DNA of 47,394 bases from Candidatus Methylomirabilis sp. (GTDB taxonomy: Bacteria > Methylomirabilota > Methylomirabilia > Methylomirabilales > Methylomirabilaceae). Shown in pieces: positions 25,468 to 27,913 of this stretch. The notes beneath the pieces were generated by a model that did not search any database, had not been told where the DNA came from, and saw only the letters and a program-made list of their open reading frames with translations. The position numbers and the translations under genes were made by a program. The stretch's first letter is position 1. The number at the start of each line of letters is the position of its first letter. The DNA lies in assembly GCF_028716865.1 (NCBI RefSeq), contig NZ_JAQUOY010000021.1:1-47394 (forward strand). The letters are read 5' to 3'.

Positions 25468-26034
25468 ATGTTGGTTGTCATCGATAACTACGATTCCTTC
25501 ACCTATAATCTGGTCCAGTACTTAGGCGAGCTCGGCGAACGCCCTCGCGTCTTCCGGAACGACCAGGTCACGCTGGAGGAGATCGAAGCGCTTCATCCCG
25601 ATCAGATTGTAATCTCTCCGGGACCGAAGACCCCGAAGGAAGCCGGCATCAGTTGCGACCTCATCGGTCAGTTTGCCGGAAAGGTCTCGATCCTTGGCGT
25701 CTGCCTCGGCCATCAGTGCATCGGTGCCGCATTTGGCGGCCGGATCGTGCGGGCGGCTCGCTTGATGCACGGCAAGACCTCTCCGATCCACCATGACGGT
25801 CAGACTATCTTTTCTGGCCTCCCGAACCCCTTTGAGGCGACGCGCTACCATTCACTCCTCATCGATCGGGAGGAATTCCCTGATTGCCTGGAGATTTCGG
25901 CTGAGACCGCCGAAGGGGAGATCATGGGGGTTCGCCACAAGACGCATCGGATCGAAGGGATTCAATTCCACCCCGAATCGATCCTGACGAAAGAAGGCAA
26001 GGCCCTGCTCAGGAACTTCCTCTCACTCTCCTGA
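25468..26034 (+). CDS. trpG: Anthranilate synthase glutamine amidotransferase subunit
   Basis: A 188-residue class I amidotransferase that supplies ammonia to TrpE. It begins [23 protein letters not shown]; the oxyanion and nucleophile region is SPGPKTP and [10 protein letters not shown] (cysteine nucleophile), and the His/Glu of the triad is in IQFHPESIL. Often the same protein also serves PabB for folate, so it may be amphibolic; no pabB is visible here. It sits between trpE and trpD with short spacers. Confidence 0.95.
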
Positions 26035-26059: not shown

Positions 26060-27097
26060 ATGATGATCCTGGAGGCGTTACAAAAGGTAGTCGAGCGACG
26101 AGACCTCAGCCCTGAAGAGGCCTTCATGACCATGGAAGAGATGATGTCGGGGAAAGCGTCTGATCCGCAGATCGCCGCCTTTCTCACGGCGCTTCGATGT
26201 AAGGGCGAGACGGTGGGTGAGATTACCAGTTTTGCCAGGGCGATGCGAACGCACGTGTCGCCGGTGGTGGTAGGGGCACGTTGCAACGTGCCCCTACTGG
26301 TGGATACCTGTGGTACCGGGGGCGACGCCGGCCACACCTTTAACATCTCAACGGCGGCTGCCTTCGTAACGGCCGGAACAGGAGTCCGGGTGGCCAAGCA
26401 TGGCAACCGCTCGGTATCGAGTCTATGCGGAAGCGCCGACGTCATGGAGGCGCTGGGCGTAGACCTCACGCTCACGCCGGAGCAGGTAGGGAACTGTATC
26501 GACGAAGTCGGGATCGGGTTCTTGTACGCGCCGCTCTTGCACACGGCCATGCGCTACGTGATGACGGCTCGCCGGGACATACGGATCCGGACGGTGTTCA
26601 ACATCCTTGGCCCCCTGACCAATCCTGCCGGGGCATCGGCTCAGGTGGTGGGCGTGTATGAAGACCGCCTCACAGAACTCTTAGCGAGCGCGCTGAATGA
26701 TCTGGGGTCGAAGCGAGCGTTCGTCGTGTTCGGCCTTGACGGGCTTGATGAGCTCTCACCCACAGGAGAGAGCAGGGTTTCCGAGGTTAAAGATGGGCAT
26801 GTTCACACCTACGTAGTCTCGCCGGAGGATTTCGGTCTTCAGCGGGCAACGCTTCGCGACCTGCAGGGCGGCAGTGCGGCTGAGAACGCAGCGATCATCA
26901 AGAAAATCCTGGGCGGGGAGATGGGGCCGAAACGCGACGTGGTGGTCATGAACGCCGCGCTGGCCATCGTCGCTGGCGGCAAGGCTGATGATTTCAAGGA
27001 GGGGGTCAGGCTGGCTGCTCGCTCGATCGATGCCGGCGCCGCCATGGAGAAGCTCTGCCGACTGGTGGAGTTCAGCCGGCGATACTGCCGGCAGTAA
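26060..27097 (+). CDS. trpD: Anthranilate phosphoribosyltransferase
   Basis: A 345-residue TrpD that couples anthranilate to PRPP. Key motifs are the PRPP-binding DTCGTGGD loop, the helix HTFNISTAAAFV, KHGNRSVSS, and RTVFNILGPLTNPAG. Just before the PRPP loop the coding sequence contains a perfect 28-base palindrome (26270-26297) read as VGARCNVPL, where relatives have a variable linker. The frame is intact, so the enzyme is probably active with a longer loop. AAGGTGAG precedes the ATG pair at 26060/26063. Confidence 0.95.
   Translation: MMILEALQKVVERRDLSPEEAFMTMEEMMSGKASDPQIAAFLTALRCKGETVGEITSFARAMRTHVSPVVVGARCNVPLLVDTCGTGGDAGHTFNISTAAAFVTAGTGVRVAKHGNRSVSSLCGSADVMEALGVDLTLTPEQVGNCIDEVGIGFLYAPLLHTAMRYVMTARRDIRIRTVFNILGPLTNPAGASAQVVGVYEDRLTELLASALNDLGSKRAFVVFGLDGLDELSPTGESRVSEVKDGHVHTYVVSPEDFGLQRATLRDLQGGSAAENAAIIKKILGGEMGPKRDVVVMNAALAIVAGGKADDFKEGVRLAARSIDAGAAMEKLCRLVEFSRRYCRQ
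26270..26297. repeat. Perfect 28-bp palindrome within trpD
   Basis: The half-site GTAGGGGCACGTTG is followed directly by its exact reverse complement CAACGTGCCCCTAC, with no loop. It lies in frame in trpD (the first base is codon position 1). GTAGGGGC...GCCCCTAC palindromes are, from memory, a dispersed REP-like repeat in several bacterial lineages. There is no T-tract, so it is not a terminator. No second full copy occurs in this window. Confidence 0.9.
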
Positions 27098-27109
27098 TCT
27101 GGAGCGTTG

Positions 27110-27913
27110 ATGCTGCGTCGTATTCTTGAGTACAAGCGCCAGGAGGTCACCGAACGGGAGGCGGCAATCCCGCTCGCGGAGCTGAGGGCGCAAGCGTTCG
27201 ACTCACCGCCCCCGCGCGATTTCACGACCGCCGTCACAAGGAGTCGAAGGGAGACAGCGACGCGTGAACCCCTGAAGGCCATTGCTGAGATTAAACGCGC
27301 CTCACCGTCCGCGGGGGCGATCCGCGAGCCGCTTGACGTGGCTGAGATTGCGGCATCCTACCAGGCGGCCGGCGCGAGCGCGATCTCGGTTCTCACGGAT
27401 GGGCGGTTCTTTAAAGGAAGCCTGAAGGATATTGCGACAGCTCGAGGGGCTGTCGATCTGCCGCTGCTCAGGAAAGAGTTCATCATCAGCCCCTACCAGA
27501 TTTATGAGAGCCGCGCGCATCGGACAGACGCGATTTTGCTGATCGTCGCAGCCCTCGATGGTTCACAACTGGCCGACTTCTATTCACTGGCGACATCGCT
27601 GTCCCTGCATCCACTGGTTGAGGTTCATACCCTGACAGAGCTTGAGACCGCGAAGAAAGCGGGGGCCACACTCATCGGGATCAATAACCGAGATCTGGCA
27701 ACCCTGGAGACCCGGTTGGACACCACGTTTGCGCTTCTGCCATACCTTCCCCCGAAGGCGGTCGTCGTAAGTGAAAGCGGCATCAGCCGTCCTGAAGAGA
27801 TGCGGCGGTTAGCTGCGTCGCCTGTAGATGCGGTCCTGGTCGGCGAAGCCTTGCTCGCGAGTTCGGATCCCGGCGGCAGGCTTCGCGAGTTGTTGCTGGA
27901 TGCCAACGGATGA
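27110..27913 (+). CDS. trpC: Indole-3-glycerol phosphate synthase
   Basis: A 267-residue TIM-barrel enzyme that closes the indole ring from CdRP. Motifs in order: IAEIKRASPSAGAI, AISVLTDGRFFKGSLKDI, PLLRKEFIISPYQIYE, LIGINNRDLATLE and VSESGISRPEEM. These supply the phosphate-binding and catalytic Lys/Glu residues. ATG 27110 with GGAG five bases upstream was chosen over an in-frame TTG one codon earlier. It overlaps trpF by four bases. Confidence 0.96.
   Translation: MLRRILEYKRQEVTEREAAIPLAELRAQAFDSPPPRDFTTAVTRSRRETATREPLKAIAEIKRASPSAGAIREPLDVAEIAASYQAAGASAISVLTDGRFFKGSLKDIATARGAVDLPLLRKEFIISPYQIYESRAHRTDAILLIVAALDGSQLADFYSLATSLSLHPLVEVHTLTELETAKKAGATLIGINNRDLATLETRLDTTFALLPYLPPKAVVVSESGISRPEEMRRLAASPVDAVLVGEALLASSDPGGRLRELLLDANG

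Follow-up and report, generated by a model that had tools for sequence, protein, structure and literature searches.

A palindrome resembling double-foot REPs forms part of the TrpD linker in Candidatus Methylomirabilis

The trpD gene of a Candidatus Methylomirabilis genome contains a perfect 28-bp palindrome that is translated in frame as part of the linker between the two domains of the enzyme. We consider it very probable that this palindrome is a double-foot REP mobilised by a transposase of the subclass 2.4 type, and that a 28-nt copy replaced 49 nt of the ancestral trpD linker while TrpD stayed intact. By sequence comparison, the palindrome thus appears to have taken over part of an essential tryptophan-synthesis gene without loss of the protein. 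The window analyzed is the whole stretch of 47,394 nt (contig NZ_JAQUOY010000021.1), which belongs to a genome of 2.54 Mb in 53 contigs, here called G000. The features discussed are the following.

26270..26297, no strand assigned: probable double-foot REP palindrome, GTAGGGGCACGTTG followed by CAACGTGCCCCTAC, encoding TrpD residues 71-80, VGARCNVPLL (sequence, copies, trpD alignments)
26270..26273, + strand: GTAG foot (sequence)
26294..26297, - strand: second GTAG foot, read as CTAC on the + strand (sequence)
26060..27097, + strand: trpD (anthranilate phosphoribosyltransferase), the gene in which the palindrome lies (ORF, profile matches, predicted fold)
26303..26323, + strand: DTCGTGG PRPP-loop motif, TrpD residues 82-88, immediately 3' of the palindrome-encoded segment (translation, alignment)
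25468..26034, + strand: anthranilate synthase amidotransferase subunit (trpG-like), trp operon neighbour (ORF/translation, identity by inspection)
27107..27913, + strand: indole-3-glycerol phosphate synthase (trpC-like), neighbour (ORF/translation, identity by inspection)

The palindrome, GTAGGGGCACGTTGCAACGTGCCCCTAC, consists of two 14-nt arms that are 100% complementary with zero spacer, and it is the top-scoring short inverted repeat of the whole window. It begins at codon phase 0 of trpD, in agreement with the initial annotation, which had described a perfect in-frame palindrome at this place. A scan of the window for decayed copies found none besides the one in trpD. The host ORF encodes 345 aa and is identified as trpD by TIGR01245 (424 bits, cut-off 199), with PF00591 and PF02885 also matched. 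In an AlphaFold model with a mean pLDDT of 90, falling to about 70 across the linker, residues 64-80 are nearly all coil and lie between the N-terminal-domain helix 52-63 and strand 81-84, which leads into the DTCGTGGD loop. The palindrome-encoded residues therefore sit directly before the PRPP loop and in a predicted linker, as had been proposed from the sequence.

Palindrome-bearing trpD was found in four species (G000, G007, G009 and G014). In nine further members of the genus and in the outgroups the linker is of the ordinary kind, 7 codons longer and without the palindrome. The expectation that the linker would be longer in G000 was thus reversed, because 28 bp stand where 49 bp were (net -21). 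The unfilled trpD is shared with the outgroups and is therefore the ancestral state. In a trpD tree built with the linker left out, the four species group with G005, and the palindrome probably entered trpD once, in the ancestor of these four. In that ancestor a 28-nt copy would have replaced 49 nt of the inter-domain linker, and the net change of -21 nt together with an open codon phase would have kept the frame, leaving TrpD intact with VGARCNVPLL as linker. The change was probably close to neutral for TrpD.

Comparable pairs of filled and unfilled sites exist in other genes. The palindrome occupies 28 bp where relatives have 19 bp in an FAD-dependent oxidoreductase (net +9), 13 bp in glucokinase (PF02685, 318 bits; net +15) and 34 bp in hisH (identity by inspection; net -6), and 27 bp where relatives have 6 bp in the ORF of L049/L054 (net +21). 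At one further site, L055 (site C), 28 bp stand where relatives have 13 bp; it was rejected as an intragenic site and left out of the in-frame tally, as it is a gene junction where the palindrome (L055:1501-1528) supplies the TAG stop of the upstream gene. The net length change is a multiple of three at all five intragenic sites, although 28 is not. The best-preserved copies at orthologous sites have intact palindrome edges, and the unfilled state at sites other than trpD occurs in several species of the genus. These comparisons favour entry by a one-step exchange rather than by simple insertion. The earlier view of a repeat that landed in the gene without breaking it is supported, with the correction that 28 bp stand in place of 49 bp.

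An alternative history is a plain 28-bp insertion whose frameshift was repaired afterwards by separate compensating deletions. Such deletions would be favoured by selection after an insertion of this length, and the survivors seen are all in frame. However, the lost host bases abut intact palindrome ends at five intragenic sites, each deletion would need to stop exactly at the element edge without trimming, and the trpD and hisH exchanges lose more than was gained. We regard this history as unlikely. Under the preferred one-step exchange, a discrete 28-nt molecule would be captured while a gap or break was being repaired; this would account for the exact ends, the lack of target duplication and the variable host loss. 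More generally, an excised 27-28-nt hairpin might patch single- or double-strand gaps, deleting 6-49 bp, and act in genes as a ready-made in-frame linker, a proposal on which our judgement is evenly divided.

On flank trees, the filled alleles of glucokinase (L243, L300-L305) and of the FAD oxidoreductase are scattered, which points to recombination (for glucokinase, between species) or to repeated entry. Gene trees intended to date these two events gave no resolution. The filled glucokinase copies have derived core bases in common, despite their patchy tree placement. Comparison of L294/L296 with L291 showed that the FAD oxidoreductase of G003 has a palindrome with another core (ACGGCATGCCGT) and that the G008 copy is shifted by two codons within the same loop; these variants suggest repeated independent entry into one tolerant loop. 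In a separate observation, the hisH gene of G009 (L342; C18:29000-29800) has an in-frame repeat-like insert, CCCCCCTTTCGTAAAGGGGGG, encoding the peptide PPFRKGGVGGF, in a HisH loop that is occupied by the GTAG palindrome in five relatives.

The family was described from 214 non-redundant copies, found with a search pattern that fixes the 8-bp arms and the end feet. Copy length is 28 bp in 174/214, symmetry is perfect in 157 even-length copies, and the inner core is variable and mostly still self-complementary. The feet, 5' GT[AG]G and 3' C[TC]AC, are found in the window copy and in all 214, as the search pattern requires. Flanking bases are near random, and direct repeats or target duplications of 1-10 bp at the copy flanks (202 copies) occur at chance level only, so the element ends exactly at GTAG/CTAC. 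On the same flank matches we rejected a MITE or IS with target duplication. Copies are depleted yet common inside long open frames (37% vs 70% of random positions). Of the 48 copies located in frames 250 codons or longer, phase 0 (VGARCNVPL type) accounts for 30 and phase 1 (RGTLQRAPT type) for 18, and phase 2 is not represented. Two codon phases are open (VGA...PL or RG...APT), and the third would read a TAG stop.

A genome-wide count revealed four copies in G000 besides the one in trpD. Two have the same core, at C12:67117 (1 mismatch) and C14:53789 (2 mismatches, symmetric), and two are GTAGGGGC...GCCCCTAC palindromes with other cores, at C1:83851 and C24:20378. Together with the trpD copy on C21 this gives 5 copies against 0.06 expected, and a reversed control pattern gave 0. 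Decayed copies lie in glucokinase, hisH and one gene junction; abundance in G000 is thus low, with about five good and several decayed copies, all dispersed. Across the genus, 1-10 palindromes per genome were found in 15/15 genomes (control pattern 0), and in-frame copies are also present in an FAD oxidoreductase, glucokinase, HisH and an AsmA-like protein. The flank search brought up a separate repeat of roughly 100 bp (AATCCCCCTACGAAAGGGGGAG...GGGGGATAGGGGGG; L242:616-816), dispersed in many copies through the genus.

At least 118 stretches of DNA, from a wide range of phyla, contain the exact 28-mer. Among the matches listed, hosts include Planctomycetota, Brocadiales, Deltaproteobacteria, Chloroflexi, Troglogloeales, Dadabacteria, Thermodesulfovibrionia, Atribacteria, Acidobacteria and others. 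One planctomycete genome, G060 (JACQVQ01), has 211 palindromes in about 2.0 Mb and 3 transposase copies, with some 12 or more different symmetric cores side by side. Two other Planctomycetes loci (L101 and L200) have ORFs of 696 and 1289 codons with three in-frame palindromes each, their cores differing. At L137:6168-6195 and L148:7116-7143 the palindrome adjoins tandem coding repeats built from one half of itself (LDQRAPT / LQRAPT units), which looks like an amplification of half-elements.

The mobiliser is most likely a HuH transposase of the TnpAREP/RAYT subclass 2.4 type, one whose own gene contains this palindrome in frame behind the HuH motif. One Y1/HuH transposase family has the palindrome in this position, between MPNHxHGII and the VWQRNYYEHIIRNE region. 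Palindrome-bearing members occur in Nitrospira (Nitrospirota), Thermodesulfovibrionia, Dadabacteria, Atribacteria (Atribacterota), Planctomycetota and Methylomirabilis, where they were found in G004 and G006 and, as a shortened ORF sharing the ACGTTGCAACGT core, in G009. The motifs NHxH, WQ and YI..NP of the protein agree with Table 1 of Quentin et al. (2018; PMC6006769), and it scores 69-71 bits against NCBIfam REP_Tyr_transpos (cut-off 80).

To guard against circularity, the palindrome-coded peptide was removed from the query with which 392 Planctomycetota genomes were searched. Matches were obtained in 43/392 genomes, with the palindrome at the expected place in 13/27 readable loci; this is the unbiased figure, as loci L103-L179 had been retrieved via the palindrome. 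The positive loci are nearly all the closest members of the transposase family, and some have compensated arms (e.g., GTAGGGACACGGTGCACCGTGTCCCTAC). Of the genomes sampled for dispersed copies, 16/16 that have a close transposase contain them vs 2/20 without a transposase (Fisher p = 4e-8), and 6/10 that have distant transposases only. The 16 genomes have a median of 16 copies and up to 211, transposase-gene copy included, and the two transposase-free genomes have one copy each. Palindrome core types cluster on the transposase tree across phyla (0/200 shuffles as low), as expected if enzyme and hairpin travel together. The transposase would then make or move the hairpin.

Within the genus the picture is less complete. 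No transposase of the subclass 2.4 type was found in G000 with PF01797, a model that is weak here (21 bits for a true member). A Y1 profile search likewise gave no match in G008 and G006, which are near-complete and have 7-8 copies each, and no GTAGGGGC pair flanks the Y1 genes of the genus as in classical REPtrons. The REP-associated transposase sought since the initial annotation is thus of the right kind in relatives, and in G000 only a RAYT with a different REP was found. This RAYT (L079, C7:25065-28412; gene at C7:26565) has a 226-codon open frame and 185 bits against REP_Tyr_transpos. No other RAYT found in G000 looks intact, and this one might have mobilised the trpD palindrome in place of a subclass 2.4 enzyme. 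However, a different hairpin, GTCGGGTTA...TAACCCGAC, stands on either side of the gene. This hairpin is presumably the REP that belongs to the RAYT, the two forming a separate REP/RAYT unit, and we find an involvement of the RAYT in trpD improbable.

The RNA form of the palindrome was predicted to be a hairpin (z = -3.15 vs shuffles), in line with the hairpin first proposed for the message. A stable hairpin within the trp operon could in principle be a regulatory or structural element kept by selection, i.e., an attenuator or an mRNA stability element. Against this role, the very same sequence is also present in genes and phyla that are unrelated, the trpD of nine other genus species has no palindrome, and no compensatory stem changes were seen across the trpD of the different species. 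Furthermore, the palindromes of G014, G007 and G009 are 1-2 positions off perfect symmetry, and all these changes are synonymous, leaving the ten amino acids unchanged. The trpD hairpin is thus drifting while the peptide is unchanged, and selection on the RNA seems very improbable. From these alignments, the perfect hairpin of G000 looks like retained ancestry and not a maintained mRNA structure. A chance palindrome can be dismissed with near certainty, as 0.00026 perfect 28-bp palindromes are expected in the window (0.014 in the genome) and exact copies are present elsewhere.

The trpD palindrome would accordingly belong to a kind already known, and the original suggestion of a REP-type repeat can be sharpened to a double-foot REP, i.e., a putative non-autonomous mobile hairpin with dispersed copies and a transposase in relatives. 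Double-foot REPs, with GTAG at one end and CTAC at the other, are reported to be tied to TnpAREP/RAYT subclass 2.4 (Bertels group 4), whose tnpAREP genes hold in-frame REPs, generally between the HuH and Tyr motifs (Quentin et al., 2018; PMC6006769). The present family agrees in its GTAG foot with the reverse complement at the other end, its long GC-rich hairpin, its dispersed copies and its in-frame REP between the HuH and Tyr motifs of the transposase gene. The partner enzyme agrees in the HuH NH[IFV]H, WQ and YI..NP motifs and in its patchy spread over phyla. The family differs in that no partner gene was found in G000 with PF01797, and it is likened to the subclass by the motifs of the partner enzyme. 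The passages of that paper compared here mention no Methylomirabilis, no trpD and no exchange for host DNA.

Short palindromes tagged with GTAG have also been described of which a minority lie in ORFs in frame and whose ends can provide a TAG stop (Di Nocera et al., 2013; PMC3733652). The GTAG tag, in-frame copies and TAG stop are shared with our family. However, the canonical GTAG is unpaired and at one end only, while GTAG pairs with CTAC in the trpD hairpin, and the main text of that paper has no GTAGGGG sequence and no Methylomirabilis. Rickettsia palindromic elements (RPE) are likewise translated in frame in many unrelated proteins, but they are set apart by their description: their sequence is different, RPE-4/RPE-6 are CGTC-tagged and RPE-1 is longer (PMC3733652). 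An RPE-4/RPE-6 type was rejected on the GTAG/CTAC ends. The REPtron on C7 of G000 is similar in pairing hairpin repeats with a Y1 HuH transposase, but has another hairpin and another RAYT type.

The open-access literature yielded no account of an exchange for host DNA, no report of this family from Methylomirabilis and no mention of the encoded peptides, and searches with the 8-mer of the element returned unrelated papers only. Entry by exchange is the one new point. The spread of REP hairpins is still called poorly understood (PMC8266576). This family offers several pairs of filled and unfilled sites in one genus, a 28-mer identical across phyla and a candidate transposase carrying its own substrate, and the integration reaction therefore becomes testable. 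It also shows that unrelated enzymes have gained one and the same peptide of ten residues, each in a tolerant loop.
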